From positions 6,017-33,773 of IMG/VR virus record IMGVR_UViG_3300030110_003411: a stretch of 27,757 nucleotides of DNA; one strand, given 5' to 3'. Of this stretch, positions 29-13,728 are shown piece after piece. How positions within the stretch are numbered: position 1 is the first letter of the stretch; the number at the start of each line of letters is the position of its first letter. The notes beneath the pieces are model-generated. The model did no database searches, was not told the DNA's origin, and saw only the letters and a list, made by a program, of their open reading frames with translations. Source of the stretch: a virus. A program made the translations under genes and the position numbers.

Positions 29-778
29 TCATACTCTTGGTGTTCCCACCCTATCCCATAGTTTTAGGATTAAACGAATAAGTTGTTTTGTATTCATCTT
101 ATTCATTTTTTCTTTACTTGAGTCGTTTACCTTATTCCAAACTTGAGTCATCATATTTGCAGTAGTTCCATCTACAAGAGTACCACCAATCTTTTTAGCT
201 TGTTTGTTTTTAGCTACATCAAGAACTTTTTTAATATTACCAGTTGGTTCTACAGCTTCATTTACGGATTCTTTTATATCTGAAGTACCTGTTAATGTAT
301 ATCCTAATTGTTCACCGTTTGCTTTTCTTGCTTTTTCAAATTTTTGTTTAGCTCTACCTTTTAACTCACCACCAAAACCTTCATCTACTCCTTCAGCTGG
401 ATTCATAATATAATCACGAGACTTACTGACATAATCTTTTGCTAAAGTAATCTTATCAGTCCACCAACTTGGCAAAGAGTCATCGTTAGACATTGAACGT
501 AGTTTTTTAATGGTATCTACTGCATCTGCAATTATCAGTTTGAGTTTTCTCTCAACTGAAGCTACATCTGTATGACCGTCTTCATTCATATTTTCACTTC
601 TTACCTTGTTAGGTAGACCTTTGTGTTTTGTTTTAGCAAAGTCTTTAGTCGATTTTTTTTTCATTGACTTTGCGGCGTCCTTTACAGCTTTACTTACTTT
701 ACTAGCTGGTACTTCACCTTTTTTGTAAGCGTGAACCAGCCCCATAAATCTCTGTTGTGCTTTAGAGACAGATGGCAT
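29..778 (-). CDS. DUF3008-like N-terminus, conserved head/neck-region phage protein
   Basis: The 249-aa product begins with a short basic segment (MPSVSKAQQRFMGLVHAYKK) typical of the small DUF3008-type phage family, then a lysine-rich linker. Residues ~68-127 (DGHTDVASVERK... SLPSWWTDKIT ... SRDYIM) resemble a block I associate with conserved T4-like marine phage proteins of unknown role. The C-terminal ~70 residues are helical and basic. Its ATG overlaps the TAA of the upstream interrupted gene (TAATG), so it is translationally coupled. IKES (168-171) and VNEA (172-175) resemble prohead-protease sites. The stop is TGA. It lies at the end of the head-gene run, so a structural or neck role is likely, but this is inference from position. 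No enzymatic motif is visible. Confidence 0.8.
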   Translation of the reverse strand: MPSVSKAQQRFMGLVHAYKKGEVPASKVSKAVKDAAKSMKKKSTKDFAKTKHKGLPNKVRSENMNEDGHTDVASVERKLKLIIADAVDTIKKLRSMSNDDSLPSWWTDKITLAKDYVSKSRDYIMNPAEGVDEGFGGELKGRAKQKFEKARKANGEQLGYTLTGTSDIKESVNEAVEPTGNIKKVLDVAKNKQAKKIGGTLVDGTTANMMTQVWNKVNDSSKEKMNKMNTKQLIRLILKLWDRVGTPRV

Positions 779-1095
779 TACTTTCCACCAATTCTCTTAT
801 ATTGTTCTTTAAAATTAAGCTCTTCATTCTTTCCATCTTTTTTAATTTTTTTATCATCTAGTTCTTTACCACTTCTTTTATGTTGGTGTTCTTGCATTTG
901 AACTGGTTTTAAATGTTTTACATCCACATTTTCGTAAGTTTTATTTCCAAACTTTATATTACAAAATTCAACTTTACCATCCTCTGTTAGAGAATGCCAA
1001 GTTACTTCACCTACACCTTCATTCTTATACTTGGGAGACCCCCAAGTTGCGTGGTGAAATCATTGATGTTGTACTGATTTATTATATGTATCCAT
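778..1095 (-). pseudogene. Small conserved-looking phage ORF interrupted by an in-frame TGA
   Basis: Read on the minus strand, an ATG at 1095 preceded by a good Shine-Dalgarno (AGGAGACAAATAAAATG) opens a frame of 105 codons that ends at the TAA (780-778) overlapping the next ATG. Codon 12 is TGA (1062-1060). The 11 residues before it are MDTYNKSVQHQ and the frame resumes with FHHATWGSPKYKNEGVGEVT. The rest looks like a normal small phage protein (TWHSLTEDGKVEF, then a charged C-terminus with EHQHKRSGKE). No ATG follows the stop until PVQMQEH, so downstream re-initiation would lose half the protein. TGG to TGA (Trp) is the simplest explanation. The upstream gene's TAA is at 1099-1097, so spacing is normal for this operon. 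Function unknown. Confidence 0.6.
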
Positions 1096-1096
1096 T

Positions 1097-1648
1097 TTAT
1101 TTGTCTCCTAATATACGTTTAGCATATTCGTCTTTTGTAGGTTCTACTTTTCCTCTAACTACATCCAATACAAAGTTTATTGTAATATCGTTAGCTACTA
1201 AATCTCCACATCTGGCGGTAACCGTTCCTTTTAAACCATCTATAATGATTGAACCAGTTACACCAGCAAATTGTTTAAATAATTCTGTATCTATGTTATG
1301 TTTACCTTCGTCTTGTTGCCATTCAGGTACACTATAAGTGGTGTAAACAAAATCTCTATGGTCAGCTGGAAATGAATGTTTTATTGATTCATCCACTATG
1401 TAAACTTTATCAACTTTAGTTGTTAACATTTTATACGTACCATATGTCTCAGGTAATGTTACATCATACCAACCGTGTTCTTTATCACTTTGATATGTTG
1501 GTTCACCAATCAACTCAGTTAATTCTGTTAAATACTTATCAGCGTCTTCATTTTTAAAGACACCCTCGTTAAGTTTTAACTTTGGAAGAGGTTCACCAAA
1601 TTTTCTATCCCAAACATTTTCTTTAATTAATTTTTTTAGTTTAATCAT
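1097..1648 (-). CDS. Leader-bearing phage protein, paralogous N-terminus to next gene
   Basis: The 183-aa product starts MIKLKKLIKENVWDRKFGEP, almost the same as the start of the neighbouring 1648-2016 product. After residue 30 the two differ: here there is a mixed alpha/beta domain (YQSDKEHGWYDVTLPETYG, then VTGSIIIDGLKGTVTARCGD) that I do not recognise. The leader has the form MIKLKxxIxE; IKE (8-10) and LNEG (26-29) fit the (I/L)xE consensus of T4-type prohead proteases. The ATG overlaps the stop of the upstream gene (TAATG). Position among head genes suggests a virion or prohead-internal protein. No catalytic motif is evident. Confidence 0.8.
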   Translation of the reverse strand: MIKLKKLIKENVWDRKFGEPLPKLKLNEGVFKNEDADKYLTELTELIGEPTYQSDKEHGWYDVTLPETYGTYKMLTTKVDKVYIVDESIKHSFPADHRDFVYTTYSVPEWQQDEGKHNIDTELFKQFAGVTGSIIIDGLKGTVTARCGDLVANDITINFVLDVVRGKVEPTKDEYAKRILGDK

Positions 1649-2243: not shown

Positions 2244-2867
2244 TTAACCTCTCATAATATCATTAATTATGGATTCAACTTTACAATACTCACCACAAGT
2301 TCTACCCATCGTAACATTTTTATCTACAGATTCATTTACACCTGCTGGGTGCATAAACGCTCCGTGTGTAGATGGATTAGAAACAAAATCAAAAGCTATA
2401 AGTTCAAAATCAGGTTGTACTTGAGTTACTGAATCACCATCAGCTTCACTAACAGTTTCTACTGAACCCATACCTCTTGAAGAGATACCTAACTTAATAC
2501 CCGCTTTAAATAATTCTTTTAATATATTACCACTTGGTGTGCCTAATACCTCAACTTCACCTAAAAGGTTATCACCTTCCCAATGCATATCTCTAATATT
2601 ATGTGATACATTTTGTAGATTAACTACTGAACTCTCTGGATGGTCGAGTTCTCCCATAGCTCTACGTTCTGATATAAATTCTTTTGTGTACTTTTTAGCT
2701 TCACGTTGTAAAATCTCACGAGGATAAATTCTACCATTTTGATTTTTAGCTTCAGCACGTTGTAACACACCACGAACAATTAACTTACCGTTGTTTTGTT
2801 TCATTGATTCGTTAATCTGTTCTGGTTTTATTTCAAATGGTAAGTAATCTACTATTAAGTTCTTCAC
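2244..2867 (-). CDS. 21: Prohead maturation protease (T4 gp21-like)
   Basis: This 207-aa protein matches the T4 gp21-type serine protease that cleaves scaffold and capsid proteins during head maturation at (I/L)xE sites. Seen: GRIYPREILQREAKKY (~45-60), the His motif GELDHPES (His76), and the Ser motif LGISSRGMGS (Ser129/Ser130), followed by DFELIAFDFVSNPS. The order and spacing of His and Ser fit the family. INES (18-21) and VNES (177-180) could be self-cleavage sites, since T4 gp21 processes itself. The start is GTG: the SD GGAG lies 6 nt upstream, inside the end of the preceding gene, and an ATG 2 nt away is out of frame. It lies downstream of portal and scaffold-region genes, as in T4-like phages. 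Confidence 0.88.
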   Translation of the reverse strand: MKNLIVDYLPFEIKPEQINESMKQNNGKLIVRGVLQRAEAKNQNGRIYPREILQREAKKYTKEFISERRAMGELDHPESSVVNLQNVSHNIRDMHWEGDNLLGEVEVLGTPSGNILKELFKAGIKLGISSRGMGSVETVSEADGDSVTQVQPDFELIAFDFVSNPSTHGAFMHPAGVNESVDKNVTMGRTCGEYCKVESIINDIMRG

Positions 2868-6462: not shown

Positions 6463-8046
6463 TCACTTAATTAACCAAGTTAAATCCTCTTGTTTTTTAC
6501 CTATTTCCATAGTCCAAGAATCATTTTGGTTATTTTTTGGAGTATATACACCTTGATTAGATGTTATACTACTCATTGCTTTTTTTTGTAATTCTACACC
6601 TTCAGCTCTTAATCTCAGAGCTGTTTCTCGTATCCATAATCCCATAGCGTAAGACATTACCAAGTCATCATTATATCCACTCATTGCTTCTGCCCTACTA
6701 CCATTATATATAAATACAAACAATTCATCTATTAATCTCTGTGAATGAACTGTTACTAATTTTTCTCTAAAAAATTCTTCTAATTTAGACACAACTAATG
6801 GTCTTGTCTTAGAAGTTATTGTAAATCCTGGTACAAGTTGTTTTTCAGCTCTATTAATTTTATTATTAATCTGTCTATGAACATCTACCACTTGTAAATC
6901 TTTACTCATATAAAATAGGTTTTCATATTCCCTATCAATCACTTGTTGGATTGTAGCCCAACCAATGTTATTATTCTCAATAACAAGTAATGCATTATTA
7001 TATTCAGTAGCCATATTAACTAACAGATTACCATAATCTCTCGTAGACATTCTACCTTTATATTCTGCTACTTGCTCTAAACTTTCTACATCTAAAATAT
7101 GAAATGCAGAATAGTCTGTTGAATCACCTCTACTCACGTCAGCACATACCACATAATCTTTTGTGTAGTTTGGTGGCTCCCATATCCAAACATTTGAATC
7201 AATACCACGTTTTTCCATTGGTTCTTTAACTTGTGTAGTTCTATATTCTTCTAAAATAATACCATCAACTACTGATTGACCAGAGGTTATAAAGTCACAA
7301 TCACATTCTTGAGCAGCTAACGAAGGCCCTAATAAAGCATCTTGTTCATCTCTCCAATCTTGTTCTCTATCTGGATGTACAGTCCAATGAAGTTTAATAA
7401 AATTAAAATCATTTAAATGGTCTTCAGCATCCATCCAAGTTTTGTGAAACCAATTACCTACACCATTCGGTGTAGAAAGTGCAATACATTGTCCACCAGT
7501 TGATAACGTCTGTGATGCTGCAGCCCATATACCATCAATCTTATCGATAAACGCTGCCTCATCAAGTATCAATAAAGACAGAGCTTCTGAACGACCTGCG
7601 TCCTCACCACTCGATACAGCTTTTATTTGAGAACCATTTTTATATCTCAAACTTAATTTGTTATCTTCAACACATTTTTGTTTTAACCAACTTGGAAGAT
7701 TTGCGTGCATAACACGAACTTTCGTTACCAAGTTTTTTGCTACTTCTTGTTTTGTAGCAATTACTAATATATTTTTATCTTGATGAAACGTCATCATCCA
7801 TAAAGAATATCCAGCGGTTAATGTAGATATACCTAATTGACGTGCCTTTAAAATAATATTAAATCTGCTCTGTACAAAATCCTCAACTGTTTTTTCTTGA
7901 AAAGGATAAAGATGAAATGGTATTTTTCCCTCTATCGGATGTTGTATCAAACAATATTTTTTTAAAAAGTATACTGGGTCAGCAGCACACTTTACATACT
8001 CTTGTTTAATTACGTCTTTAAGTTGTCCTTGTGTATTACGTTCCAT
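6463..8046 (-). CDS. 17: Terminase large subunit (T4 gp17-like)
   Basis: The 527-aa packaging motor has both expected halves. ATPase: Walker A-like ARQLGIST (68-75, a lineage variant with Ile in place of the GK lysine), Walker B LLILDEAA (158-165) with catalytic Glu163, and coupling motif STPNG (191-195). Nuclease: VVCADVSRGDSTDYS with Asp303, LLVIENNN with Glu357, and YNDDLVMSYAM with Asp460/Asp461, the usual acidic triad of the RNase H-like fold. Length is somewhat shorter than T4 gp17. It is followed by the portal gene 8 nt downstream. No SD is evident before its ATG, which lies 1 nt past the stop of the upstream gene, so translation is probably coupled. Confidence 0.95.
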   Translation of the reverse strand: MERNTQGQLKDVIKQEYVKCAADPVYFLKKYCLIQHPIEGKIPFHLYPFQEKTVEDFVQSRFNIILKARQLGISTLTAGYSLWMMTFHQDKNILVIATKQEVAKNLVTKVRVMHANLPSWLKQKCVEDNKLSLRYKNGSQIKAVSSGEDAGRSEALSLLILDEAAFIDKIDGIWAAASQTLSTGGQCIALSTPNGVGNWFHKTWMDAEDHLNDFNFIKLHWTVHPDREQDWRDEQDALLGPSLAAQECDCDFITSGQSVVDGIILEEYRTTQVKEPMEKRGIDSNVWIWEPPNYTKDYVVCADVSRGDSTDYSAFHILDVESLEQVAEYKGRMSTRDYGNLLVNMATEYNNALLVIENNNIGWATIQQVIDREYENLFYMSKDLQVVDVHRQINNKINRAEKQLVPGFTITSKTRPLVVSKLEEFFREKLVTVHSQRLIDELFVFIYNGSRAEAMSGYNDDLVMSYAMGLWIRETALRLRAEGVELQKKAMSSITSNQGVYTPKNNQNDSWTMEIGKKQEDLTWLIK

Positions 8047-9174: not shown

Positions 9175-12100
9175 CTAAAAATTTAATAAACCTAATATTT
9201 GATTAACTGGAGCAAAAGCACCAGTAAATTTATATGTTTTACCTTTGTACTTAAATACAATTCCTTCTGATGGAACTATTGCTGATAATCCACCAATCTT
9301 ATTTAACTTATCTAATTGTAACTTTAATGTTTGTATCTTTTTTATATCACCACCACTCTTAACTGTTTTGATTGCATTAATTACATCTTTTCTTATTTTC
9401 TGTACAGCTTTATCAGGTGATGCAGCTAGGTAACCACTAATGTTTTTTAATATCTCAGCACCAACGTCAAAGAATAATACTTCAAATGGTTTCATATTTT
9501 GCTTTACCCATTTTTGATGGTCATTTTTATCAAATGATAATACCCAATCTAAAAACTTTTCATTATCTATATTTTTTCGTATTGTTGGAATTTTATATGA
9601 CTTATCAAAAAACGCCCATCTCTTAGTTAAATCAACTAAAACTTTATTTGGTATTTTATATTTATATTGTTTAGACGCATTAAAAATAAACTCTTCCCAA
9701 AATGATTGATGATACTTAGATAGTGTATCATTATCTTTTAACTTAAATTGGTTTTGTAATTTTTTTAATCTATTTAAATATACTTTTTTCTTTTTACCAA
9801 AATCTTGTACTTTTGATACTTGTAAAAATTGTGGTTTACCAATCGTATAATTTTTTTGTACATTTTGATTTACTTGTTTAATCATACCAGCTAACATACG
9901 AGCTGAATCTTTAGGTTGACCTATTGCTTTAGCACTTTCATCGTACTCTAATGTTCCGTGAAATACTATTTGTGCTTTATCATAATCTACCACATTTACA
10001 GATTTAGGATACATAACTTCTAAGTTCATCCAACGTTTTCCATTACCAAATATTTTTTCTTTTTGTGAATCAGATAAAGAACCTATAGATTTACTTAAAT
10101 CTTTCATTGCAAAAACAAAAGCATCTTTAATATCACCTCTACCTGCAAACTTAGAAGCAACACCTGCTGTGTCCATTGCCGTTGCTCCAAAATTTTTCAA
10201 CTGGCCTTTGTTTCGAGCTGTTACCAGTTTACCTTTTACCCAAGAAACCATTAAGTTTTGACCATCAAGTTTCTCTGTAACTCCATCCTCTCGGTTTAAT
10301 TTACCACCGAGTCCATTAATAATTATCTGTTTTAAATCCGAAAATGTAATATTTTTATCGTCAAACGGATGATTCATATGTCCGTATGCTCCACCCTCTA
10401 TGATAAGTTTTATTTCTTCATCTAAATTAATTCTCTCTTTTAAGTCTAATTTATCTAATTCAGTATTTCCCACATTGTCTACACCGATACCAGGTAATAC
10501 TGGAGTTTCTACTTCTACACCTGTATAATTTTTACCATCAGGTGTTATACCCATCCATTTTAATATTTTATAACCCAAATTATGTAAAACTGTGTTCTCT
10601 ATGTAGTCTTTATATGAATCAATTGGACTTGTAACTCCAAATCTAGTACCATAATCACCAGATTGTTTTTTACCATATGCGACTGCAGGAACTGTATTAT
10701 ATTTAAGAGTGTAGTCATAATCAGGATTAATCGCACCCTTTCCTAAAATATATTGTAGTACTTCCCAACCAGTTCCAGCGTACATATCGTCTATCCATAT
10801 TTTAGAGAATTTTTTATAATCATCAAACCCTTTATAAAATGTTGGTGGCCCATCATCGGTTGGTGATAACGCTGTTGTGTTAACTTCTTTAATAAGTTTC
10901 TTTATATCATTATTGATTAAAAACTCATCTATAGATTCAAATAATTTTTTAAATTTATTAGTCATCATATTATAGATACCTTTATCAAAGTATCCAAAAG
11001 CTTTTTTAAATAACTTTTCTCTATCTTCTTCATAATTAGGTGAACCAAGTAATTGTCTCATTACCGTACCACTAACTTCATTACCAGCTACTTTGATTGA
11101 TACGTGAGGTGCTGTAAGAACATATCCATTATCCTCATATCCACTCATCTTGTTTTTGTTCTTCATATAATCTTGAAAGTATTTACCACCTTTTAATCTA
11201 CCAGCGTCTTTAGCTCCAAATATATAAACAACTGCTGTAGTATCTTTGTCATATTTCTTTAATACATTTTTTGCTACATAGGGTGACCTCTCTTCTATGA
11301 TACGATTTTTAGGTATACCCATTTTTGTCATATGACGAACTTTTTCTTTAAAGTTCATTGGATGTCTTGGTGGTTGTTTTATATTAGATGTAGTGATGTA
11401 AGCGTCATCTACTCTTTTCTTTAACCACTCATAAGTTTTTTTGTGATGAGGGCCAAATGGTTGAAATCTTCCACCATAGATACCTACAACTTTTTTGATT
11501 GTAGGTGATTTTTTTTGAAGAGCTTTACTTATCTTACGACCAGCTCCTTTTGGAAAAATTTCATTAGCTTTTTTACCTGTATCTGTTTTTAGAAAAGGGC
11601 CTCTTCGAAGTGTTTGAAATCTTACAGGTACTTCTTGACCAAATAAATTTTTAGGTGCTAAGATTCTTAATGTAACCATTTTTTTAGGATTATCAACTTT
11701 AATAGTTTCAAATTCTATCTCTTTATATTTTCTACCCTTATGTGTAAGATTCTTACCAGTTATAAACTTCTCTACTTTATTACCTCTGACTGCAAAAGCT
11801 TCATTAACTTTTTTATAACCACTACCATAAGGAACTGAAGTGTTACCTTTTTTCTTCATCTTCTCAACACCTTTACGACTCGGTGAAGCTATAGTGATTT
11901 CATTCTTCTTCTTAGTTTTCTTTTTCATTTTATTGATGAAAGCTCTATATACTGCGGCTTGAGATGCTTTACCCATTTCTTTAGCTCGTTGTTCCATAGC
12001 GACGGCCGCTTGTATTTTGTGTGCGTGAGACTTACCACTATTTTTTATTTTACTTACAGAAGCCTGAGCATCTTTTACTGTAGCAAACTTCAATCCTTTT

Positions 12101-13152
12101 ATTGTACCTTTTGGATTCTCATCTGTGTATAAATCTGAATGGGATTTAGAACCTCTGTGTTGTCCTTTTTTTCTTGGAACTCTTGGTGCTTCTGAAAGTC
12201 CTTGTTTTTTTAATATTTGTTGTTTTTTTATCCAACGTTTAGCTAGTTTATTTTTTATTGGTTTACTAACAAATTTAGTTATACCTTTTCTAACTAAGGA
12301 TGCAAACTTTCTTTCAGCGTCTTTAGGTTTTAAAAATTTAGAATTATCAACAATTAAAAAGTTTTGTTTGAAAAGATTTTGAAATTTACCTAAATTTTTC
12401 TGTACGTCTTTCCAACTTTTTTCTAATAACTTTGGTGGTAAAATTCTATCTCGTTCTTGATTTCTTTGTTGTGCAACTTCTAAGGATGTATTGACAAATA
12501 CCATATATGTATCATAACCATCTTCTTCAAGTTCTCTTTTCATTTTAGCAAGTTTACCGAAGTCGTGACCAGTACCATCAATAATCATACCCAACTTACC
12601 AGACTGATATTGTTTCATTCTTTGAGCAGTAAGTTCTTTACTATATGTTCTTAACCCACTATAATCTTTATCTTTTGGATTTGTAAGTTGACTAAATAAC
12701 TCATCTGGCATCTTATCTAAATCTGTACCAAATCCAAACTTGTTTAGAAGAAACTTTAACTCTTTATCTGAGTTTACCATCTTCAAACCACTCATACTGA
12801 TATTATATCTTTCAGGTATTCCAAATAGTTGTTTAGCAACATAAGTTTTACCACTACCTGGCCCACCAGCTAAAAAAACTGCTTTAAATATGCCAGGATC
12901 GTTTACACCCTCTGTAACATTTGGTCTTTTTTTACTGTTGATTATTTTTGTGTCGTCTTTTTTAGGGATTCTGAATGTAGTTGCTTTTCTACCATTGATA
13001 GTTGGCATACCGTGTTGGTCTTTACCAATATCTTTGACAATCATTTTCTTGTTTTTGAATTTACCAACAAGAATAGTATCACCAACCTTTACTGGTAGTT
13101 TGATATCCTCTTCTAAAAAAGGTTTAGTTAACCATTTGGTTAATTTGTTCAT
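9175..13152 (-). CDS. Multi-enzyme protein: P-loop kinase, NMNAT-like transferase, ligase-like domain
   Basis: The 1325-aa product is a chain of domains. 1-15: leader ending in LEE. 17-65: small beta domain (VKVGDTILVGKFKNKK). 88-290: P-loop kinase, zeta-toxin/polynucleotide-kinase type, with Walker A GGPGSGKT (96-103), IDGTG (191-195) and a basic lid (RNQERDR). 322-410: small basic domain (PRKKGQHRGSKSHSDLYTDE). 553-720: cytidylyltransferase/NMNAT-like fold with GGRFQPFGPHH (560-570) and EVSGTVMRQLL (692-702). 757-900: domain of unknown role. 920-1325: covalent-nucleotidyltransferase-like domain with KLDG (961-964), ARNKG (979-983), LEVMYP (1044-1049), EGIVFK (1296-1301) and KTYKFTG (1305-1311), resembling ligase motifs I, Ia, III, IV and V, with a helical insert. 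Junctions carry LSEA (319-322), LIKEV (753-757) and LIIEGG (916-921). Nucleic-acid repair or NAD-type nucleotide chemistry is likely; the substrate is unknown. TAATG overlap with the endolysin gene. Confidence 0.85.
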   Translation of the reverse strand: MNKLTKWLTKPFLEEDIKLPVKVGDTILVGKFKNKKMIVKDIGKDQHGMPTINGRKATTFRIPKKDDTKIINSKKRPNVTEGVNDPGIFKAVFLAGGPGSGKTYVAKQLFGIPERYNISMSGLKMVNSDKELKFLLNKFGFGTDLDKMPDELFSQLTNPKDKDYSGLRTYSKELTAQRMKQYQSGKLGMIIDGTGHDFGKLAKMKRELEEDGYDTYMVFVNTSLEVAQQRNQERDRILPPKLLEKSWKDVQKNLGKFQNLFKQNFLIVDNSKFLKPKDAERKFASLVRKGITKFVSKPIKNKLAKRWIKKQQILKKQGLSEAPRVPRKKGQHRGSKSHSDLYTDENPKGTIKGLKFATVKDAQASVSKIKNSGKSHAHKIQAAVAMEQRAKEMGKASQAAVYRAFINKMKKKTKKKNEITIASPSRKGVEKMKKKGNTSVPYGSGYKKVNEAFAVRGNKVEKFITGKNLTHKGRKYKEIEFETIKVDNPKKMVTLRILAPKNLFGQEVPVRFQTLRRGPFLKTDTGKKANEIFPKGAGRKISKALQKKSPTIKKVVGIYGGRFQPFGPHHKKTYEWLKKRVDDAYITTSNIKQPPRHPMNFKEKVRHMTKMGIPKNRIIEERSPYVAKNVLKKYDKDTTAVVYIFGAKDAGRLKGGKYFQDYMKNKNKMSGYEDNGYVLTAPHVSIKVAGNEVSGTVMRQLLGSPNYEEDREKLFKKAFGYFDKGIYNMMTNKFKKLFESIDEFLINNDIKKLIKEVNTTALSPTDDGPPTFYKGFDDYKKFSKIWIDDMYAGTGWEVLQYILGKGAINPDYDYTLKYNTVPAVAYGKKQSGDYGTRFGVTSPIDSYKDYIENTVLHNLGYKILKWMGITPDGKNYTGVEVETPVLPGIGVDNVGNTELDKLDLKERINLDEEIKLIIEGGAYGHMNHPFDDKNITFSDLKQIIINGLGGKLNREDGVTEKLDGQNLMVSWVKGKLVTARNKGQLKNFGATAMDTAGVASKFAGRGDIKDAFVFAMKDLSKSIGSLSDSQKEKIFGNGKRWMNLEVMYPKSVNVVDYDKAQIVFHGTLEYDESAKAIGQPKDSARMLAGMIKQVNQNVQKNYTIGKPQFLQVSKVQDFGKKKKVYLNRLKKLQNQFKLKDNDTLSKYHQSFWEEFIFNASKQYKYKIPNKVLVDLTKRWAFFDKSYKIPTIRKNIDNEKFLDWVLSFDKNDHQKWVKQNMKPFEVLFFDVGAEILKNISGYLAASPDKAVQKIRKDVINAIKTVKSGGDIKKIQTLKLQLDKLNKIGGLSAIVPSEGIVFKYKGKTYKFTGAFAPVNQILGLLNF

Positions 13153-13649
13153 TATACAGACAAGGCTCTTTTATACCAACCGTAAATAAATCTCTCTTGT
13201 TCTGGTTTTTTATTAACTAAATCGTAATAGTGTTTTAATCTATAGCAACGAACTCTATCTGTAGATGGTTTATATTTTTCTAACGCACCTTTTGTACCAG
13301 GCCCGAATCCACCGTCAACTTTTAAATCACCACCTTTACCATTGATTGCTCTCTGTAGAATCTTAACTGCAGTTCCTCTACCTTGATTCACACACATATC
13401 AAAAAAGATATGTTTTAAATCATCAGTTAATTCATCTACCTTATTCTTATCCCAATAATCTCTTTTATAGATTTCTTTAGCACCTTCTTCTGTAAGGTTC
13501 TTAATGTCTACGTCAGGATAGAATCGTTTTGCTATACCAAAATTAGTTTCACCACCTAAATCTTTTGGGTCGTGAACATAACCACCTTCGTGGTCAAGTG
13601 TGATTTGAATTATCTCATCAAATGTGGTTAAAGTTTTATCACTTTTCAT
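13152..13649 (-). CDS. Endolysin, glycoside hydrolase family 108 with peptidoglycan-binding end
   Basis: The product degrades cell-wall peptidoglycan for lysis. The GH108 signature FDEIIQITLDHEGGYVHDP holds the catalytic Glu in EGGY, followed by LGGETNFGIAKRFYPDV and IYKRDYWDK. The C-terminal half (VNQGRGTAVKILQRAINGKG, then VDGGFGPGTKGALEKY) is the PG_binding_3-type companion. I prefer the ATG at 13649 (165 aa): it has an excellent SD (AGGGAGTAAACCTATG). An in-frame ATG at 13703 would add 18 residues (MSIYEILKQIINILGSKP) but has no SD and overlaps an AT-rich promoter-like motif. No signal peptide is evident, so release probably needs a holin. The stop overlaps the next gene's ATG. Confidence 0.88.
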   Translation of the reverse strand: MKSDKTLTTFDEIIQITLDHEGGYVHDPKDLGGETNFGIAKRFYPDVDIKNLTEEGAKEIYKRDYWDKNKVDELTDDLKHIFFDMCVNQGRGTAVKILQRAINGKGGDLKVDGGFGPGTKGALEKYKPSTDRVRCYRLKHYYDLVNKKPEQERFIYGWYKRALSV

Positions 13650-13728
13650 AGGTTTACTCCCTAATATATTAATAATTTGTTTGAGAATTTCGTATATACT
13701 CATATATAAATATCAGTTTAGAATTATT

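Follow-up and report, generated by a model that had tools for sequence, protein, structure and literature searches.

A candidate selenoprotein family in the head region of T4-like phages, with a conserved in-frame UGA and a SECIS-like hairpin

Known selenoprotein genes and the phage locus

Bacterial selenoprotein genes, such as fdhF of E. coli, carry an in-frame UGA followed within the coding region by a hairpin, the small G-containing apical loop of which lies 16–37 nt downstream, and their selenocysteine (Sec) pairs with a Cys in homologous proteins. In the bSECIS model, the loop has the pattern N1-G-[G/U]-N-N2, the spacing is 16–37 nt and the stem is 4–16 bp long; SECIS-like elements are further described by a loop of 3–9 nt, a G within the first two loop positions, and an MFE of at most -7.5 (PMC13188914). 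In the open literature covered by our searches, viral selenoproteins are described only for poxviruses, as glutathione peroxidases (molluscum contagiosum, fowlpox) that are virus-encoded and need host machinery (PMC8310308). Phage tRNA-Sec genes have been reported in a paper on wastewater huge phages (PMC10747093). Searches of the open literature yielded no native phage selenoprotein, and none is mentioned in the prokaryotic selenoproteome review or the marine selenoproteome papers. New families with SECIS-like hairpins are known from the GOS and Sargasso Sea metagenomes (GOS_A to GOS_C, hypothetical protein 1).

The gene described here lies in a 27,757-nt stretch of DNA (the window) that belongs to a 33.8-kb virus record. 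It resembles bacterial selenoprotein genes in its in-frame UGA, its coding-region hairpin (loop spacing here 19–20 nt), and the pairing of the UGA residue with Cys of homologues. It differs from genes such as fdhF in being a phage gene, in its uninterrupted stem of 6–7 bp with no evident bulged U, and in its motif, which is H-x-U rather than U-x-x-C or C-x-x-U. Like the poxvirus proteins, its product is virus-encoded and would need host machinery, but those are captured host GPx genes of eukaryotic viruses with eukaryotic-type SECIS elements. The GOS and Sargasso Sea families are likewise marine and metagenomic; they are set apart by their descriptions, which state no phage origin, and, where a motif is given, by CxxU or UxxC. 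As far as sequence can test it, the gene has the anatomy of a bacterial selenoprotein gene, and we estimate a probability of about 87% that it encodes a small phage selenoprotein, with Sec inserted at the UGA by the Sec machinery of the host.

The features of the locus are collected in Table 1. The layout given by an earlier sequence-only reading (Shine-Dalgarno sequence, ATG, 11 codons, TGA at 1062–1060, 93 codons, and a TAA overlapping the next ATG) can be read directly from the minus strand. The start codon occupies 1095–1093, the first 11 codons encode MDTYNKSVQHQ, and the TAA at 780–778 overlaps the ATG at 778–776. A 183-codon gene (1648–1097) and a 249-codon gene (778–29) flank the TGA gene on the same strand. 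Judged from sequence, the region belongs to a T4-like phage near Mel-JY01 and the Flavobacterium immuto phages and represents its head gene cluster.

Other genes on the minus strand of the window are also of note. The adjacent genes at 1097–1648 and 1648–2016 have a common N-terminal segment, MIKLKxxLxExxVWDRKFGEPLPxL, which may serve both as a targeting leader or may reflect a duplication. A 1325-aa ORF (9175–13152) combines an ATP-binding kinase-like N-terminus with a cytidylyltransferase-like segment, which may be compared with the cytidylyltransferase gene that adjoins the cyanophage homologues of the TGA gene. Adjoining it is a 183-aa ORF (13152–13703) with the appearance of a phage lysozyme-type endolysin.

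Table 1. Positions of the TGA gene, its elements and its neighbourhood in the window
Feature	Position	Strand	Basis
Whole gene: ATG, 11 codons, in-frame TGA (proposed Sec), 93 codons, TAA	778..1095	-	Sequence; layout shared by 34 homologous contigs of family 1
Shine-Dalgarno AGGAG	1105..1109	-	Sequence
In-frame TGA, proposed Sec codon (residue 12), motif H-x-U	1060..1062	-	TGA in 63/63 contigs, three families; Cys in distant clade
SECIS-like hairpin, nt +14 to +30 after TGA, 6 bp plus closable seventh pair, loop GGUCU	1030..1046	-	Covariation; synonymous-codon null; absent in Cys homologues
His10 codon, invariant H of H-x-U/C	1066..1068	-	Alignment of 48 sequences
His34 codon, invariant (WHSL/MHTL)	994..996	-	Alignment of 48 sequences
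His70-x-His72, nearly invariant C-terminal H-x-H	880..888	-	Alignment of 48 sequences
Context: prohead core protease-like gene, upstream in head cluster	2244..2867	-	68% identical at the DNA level to the annotated prohead protease of Microcystis phage Mel-JY01
Context: large terminase	6463..8046	-	56-57% aa to T4-like Mel-JY01 and Flavobacterium immuto phages (closest)

Conservation of the TGA codon and its cysteine counterpart

Each of the 63 homologous IMG/VR contigs carries TGA at the same place, within H-x-[TGA]; together they form three divergent families of 34, 26, and 3 members. Every IMG/VR relative of the downstream half confirmed by tblastn has TGA at this codon. A DNA pattern that left codon 12 free recovered 27 contigs, each with TGA, and a profile search added seven family-1 contigs, all with TGA, to give the total of 34; these include the divergent L077 (MDKQDKIKHQ*MHHARWGDP, where the asterisk marks the TGA). 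The looser motif VxWHSLxExGxV led to the second family (...DDIIGHT*LTHVRKKGSSLNEVGYVLWHSLNESG...) and the third (...LEHQ*IKEATLSSALM...), which grew to 26 and 3 contigs in profile and single-sequence searches, again with TGA throughout. Because the TGA is kept in every relative found (63/63), two explanations offered by the sequence-only reading, a nonsense mutation of a Trp codon and a sequencing error, are ruled out, and their chance is close to nil.

The protein is conserved on both sides of the TGA, and nucleotide changes fall mostly in third positions. In all 63 contigs, the in-frame UGA is itself conserved and is flanked on either side by conserved coding sequence, as in bacterial selenoproteins. 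This pattern also bears on the idea that the locus makes two products, namely a short, conserved leader peptide that stops at the TGA and a downstream protein with a start of its own. The 11-codon ORF with a good Shine-Dalgarno sequence in the window family would suit such an arrangement, but the codons right after the TGA (FHHATWG, LTHV) show conservation at the protein level, a start codon is lacking there in most members, family 2 has long upstream coding regions (23–282 open codons) rather than a leader, and the Cys clade described below reads straight through. Two separate products are thus very improbable.

The families vary in the regions attached to the domain. In part of family 1 (L018:11015-11428, L022:8941-9327, L028:561-974, L031, L032, L040), it is fused to a C-terminal domain, EKNVPTNPSKWSYYKSQAKKKFDVYPSAYANAWAAKQYKAAGGGWKKG, while L047:3001-3240 and L065:2011-2202, also of family 1, have a different C-terminal fusion with CxxC-like pairs (NLCIYCGHPVNEDLRNWFKQKWV...). 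Family-2 proteins begin with an N-terminal segment (MKLTRRQLRKLILEQ-like) that might, speculatively, be a capsid-targeting leader.

A fourth, distant clade of cyanophage type (phrog_764) has Cys (TGT/TGC) at the TGA position. In ten of ten cyanophage-type records, H-x-C (HDC, HSC, HNC, HIC) takes the place of the H-x-TGA of the window family. TGT or TGC is present at the site in the 80 best-matching IMG/VR relatives of this clade; in two of them the automatic pattern fell on the adjacent His, and HNC and HDC are evident in the sequence. Trp was found at this position in none of the relatives examined, comprising the three TGA families and the Cys clade. The alignment at codon 12 that the sequence-only reading had proposed as a check thus returns TGA in 63/63 contigs, Cys in the distant clade, and no Trp, so its suggestion of Trp suppression is not supported.

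The phrog_764 proteins, which are cyanophage proteins linked to “cytidyltransferase” (S-RIM8 AOO10550, S-ShM2 ADO97794, P-HM1 YP_004322588), contain the same small domain, with H-x-C, H[TS]L-x-E-x-G, and H-x-H. They differ from the window family in that a Cys codon replaces the TGA, the hairpin is absent, and the domain often lies within a larger protein. A published survey did not find the Sec-decoding trait in Cyanobacteria (PMC1794560), which fits the use of Cys in cyanophages.

When the UGA residue is masked as X, hhalign pairs X with Cys (VQHQX/KGHDC; IGHTX/KGHDC) at a probability of 97%. MAFFT with X at the UGA places a gap before X, while the profile alignment places the gap after X and pairs X with Cys. 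Family 1 has an indel of 3–5 residues just after the Sec/Cys site, and the Cys pairing therefore rests on the H-x-[U/C] anchor together with the profile alignment. Homologues that align a Cys with the UGA, as known for bacterial selenoproteins, are thus at hand, including in the masked alignment. The match of the family to phrog_764 has an E value of 0.014 alone and a pairwise profile probability of 97%, and the best viral matches of the AF2 model (Foldseek) are the same cyanophage proteins as in the Cys clade. By both sequence and fold similarity, the family belongs to the phrog_764 domain superfamily. In a short-domain tree of 62 columns, which is shallow evidence, the three Sec clades and the one Cys clade separate with supports of 0.92, 0.94, 0.95, and 0.67 (Cys clade).

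The hairpin downstream of the UGA

The hairpin CUUGGG-GGUCU-CCCAAG noted in the sequence-only reading at 1046–1030 is present and covaries at a fixed position. Its stem begins at nt +14 after the TGA, with a gap of 13 nt. Families 1 and 2 provide 37 distinct sequences, in which +14..+20 pair with +24..+30 without gaps, even though the sequence is wholly different, as in GGUGGG-GGGAC-CCUACC, GGAAGA-AGGGU-UCUUCC, and AGCGGA-AGGAU-UCUGCU. Across 24 distinct rows, the covariation is 0.856 compared to 0.344 in shuffled rows (0/500) and at most 0.39 in slid controls; 98.2% of cells are paired, and two-sided compensatory changes occur at 6 of the 7 pairs. In family 3, a stem particular to that family, likewise compensated (CGCUG/CAGCG, AGCUG/CAGCU, AGUUG/CAACU), encloses AGUU. 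When synonymous codons are resampled with the amino acids fixed, comparable hairpins are rare (P ~0.001 for most representatives; for L015 and L040, 2 of the 12, the energy is only marginally better than the synonymous nulls, with P 0.05–0.09). Moreover, the Gly codon GGG in the hairpin is invariant in all family-1 sequences, compared to 9 of 447 Gly codons (2%) in six long window genes. Selection acts on the hairpin at the RNA level.

The window hairpin (MFE -10.2) falls within the published limits for SECIS-like elements, although a few members miss the energy limit of -7.5, such as L206 (-4.1). The loops G-GUC-U, A-GGA-U, A-GGG-U, and G-GGA-C fit the bSECIS model, with spacings of 19–20 nt; folded as a yardstick, E. 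coli fdhF has its loop at +19 (spacing 18). The likeness of the GGUCU loop to the fdhF SECIS, raised in the sequence-only reading, is apt. However, of the bulged U and GGUC-type loop that characterize the E. coli-type SECIS, the window hairpin has the GGUCU loop on a stem that folds without a bulge, and the family-2 loops are AGGAU/AGGGU. An Rfam search of the region gave chance matches only.

Stimulated readthrough likewise involves a conserved UGA with a hairpin 3′ of it. In this case, a near-cognate tRNA (e.g., Trp) would read a fraction of the UGAs under stimulation by the hairpin, so that an 11-aa peptide and the full-length protein would be made in a regulated ratio; the use of TGA as a true stop elsewhere suits this reading. 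Among the alternatives to Sec, only such readthrough, with insertion of a standard amino acid, is a serious competitor, but the Cys of the distant clade, the lack of Trp in any relative, and the SECIS geometry, namely a hairpin with the loop pattern and the distance of a SECIS (PMC13188914), argue against it. In addition, the residue before the UGA (Q, N, T, D, K; in family 1 the codons CAA, AAC, ACA) and the base after it (A, C, or T) vary, and the family-1 product would be just 11 aa if the UGA were unread. Readthrough is therefore improbable. Sec, which the sequence-only reading had named but ranked last as “much less likely”, is instead the reading best supported by TGA conservation, the Cys clade, and covariation.

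Local recoding and the predicted protein

TGA is a true stop in 9 of the 29 window genes and also ends many of the family's own genes. The recoding is therefore site-specific, and global recoding, already considered unlikely in the sequence-only reading, does not apply. In a filtered scan of eleven related contigs and the window (~0.7 Mb), the TGA gene was the sole coding-strand case of an in-frame TGA that is conserved. The filter discarded any site lying within an ORF of 110+ codons, which eliminated nearly all antisense shadows of long ORFs but also missed sites covered by such ORFs, and the few other survivors were judged to be antisense shadows. Stop codon recoding occurs in some phages, which lends some general plausibility to the idea that a phage or host tRNA suppresses UGA or partly changes the code (UGA = Trp). 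This reassignment is largely refuted, and very unlikely, since TGA stops 9/29 window genes, conserved in-frame TGA occurs in one gene of the filtered scan rather than in many, and no UGA-reading (UCA) tRNA is among the tRNAs found on the contigs searched.

No match to selB, selD, or tRNA-Sec was found on the contigs searched either, and the host would therefore have to provide the decoding machinery. Two queries found no relatives in GTDB contigs, and there is thus no link to a host. Among the family-1 contigs searched, tRNA genes occur only in L022 (G006; Cys and Ala) and L023 (G007; Ala, Glu, and Thr). No homologue was recognised near the prohead protease genes of the isolate phages Mel-JY01 and immuto.

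Across 48 sequences, H10, Sec/Cys12, G29, H34, and L36 are invariant, and H70 and H72 are nearly so. A Pfam search gave no family above the cut-off and matched no known selenoprotein family. AlphaFold predicts, with moderate confidence (core pLDDT ~70–83), a small barrel with strands at 8–18, 28–36, 42–49, 52–58, and 62–72, for which a PDB fold search returned weak Tudor/SH3-like matches only. With this fold, the first and last strands, which carry H-x-U and H-x-H, could lie side by side and make up a site for metal binding or redox chemistry. A His4-Sec/Cys metal or redox site is likewise suggested by the invariance of H-x-U/C, H, and H-x-H. Four His and one Cys are also the ligand set of superoxide reductase, to which the TGA gene product shows no sequence or fold link.

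From these features we infer Sec insertion, use of host machinery, and a metal or redox role. During infection, host SelB and tRNA-Sec would bind the hairpin just 3′ of codon 12, and Sec would be inserted at the UGA to give MDTYNKSVQHQ-Sec-FHHATWG... (105 aa). The Sec would stand in for the Cys kept at the same H-x-C position by other T4-like marine phages of the cyanophage-type clade. Together with the four conserved His (H10, H34, H70, H72) on a small SH3/Tudor-like β-barrel, it would form a probable redox-active or metal-binding site in a protein encoded in the head-assembly gene cluster.

It appears likely, though less so than the Sec reading itself, that large T4-like marine phages of three divergent lineages have retained a head-region selenoprotein with a small barrel, an invariant His4-Sec site, and a phage-borne SECIS, that they depend on Sec-decoding hosts and are tied to host selenium metabolism, and that relatives infecting Sec-lacking cyanobacteria use Cys. 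If true, such a conserved family would mean that bacterial viruses depend on the selenium metabolism of their hosts, and the TGA conservation would be a clue to host range, pointing to Sec-decoding hosts only. It would also mean that such genes are truncated by standard gene callers, and work on SelB would gain a naturally occurring collection of SECIS elements that covary.
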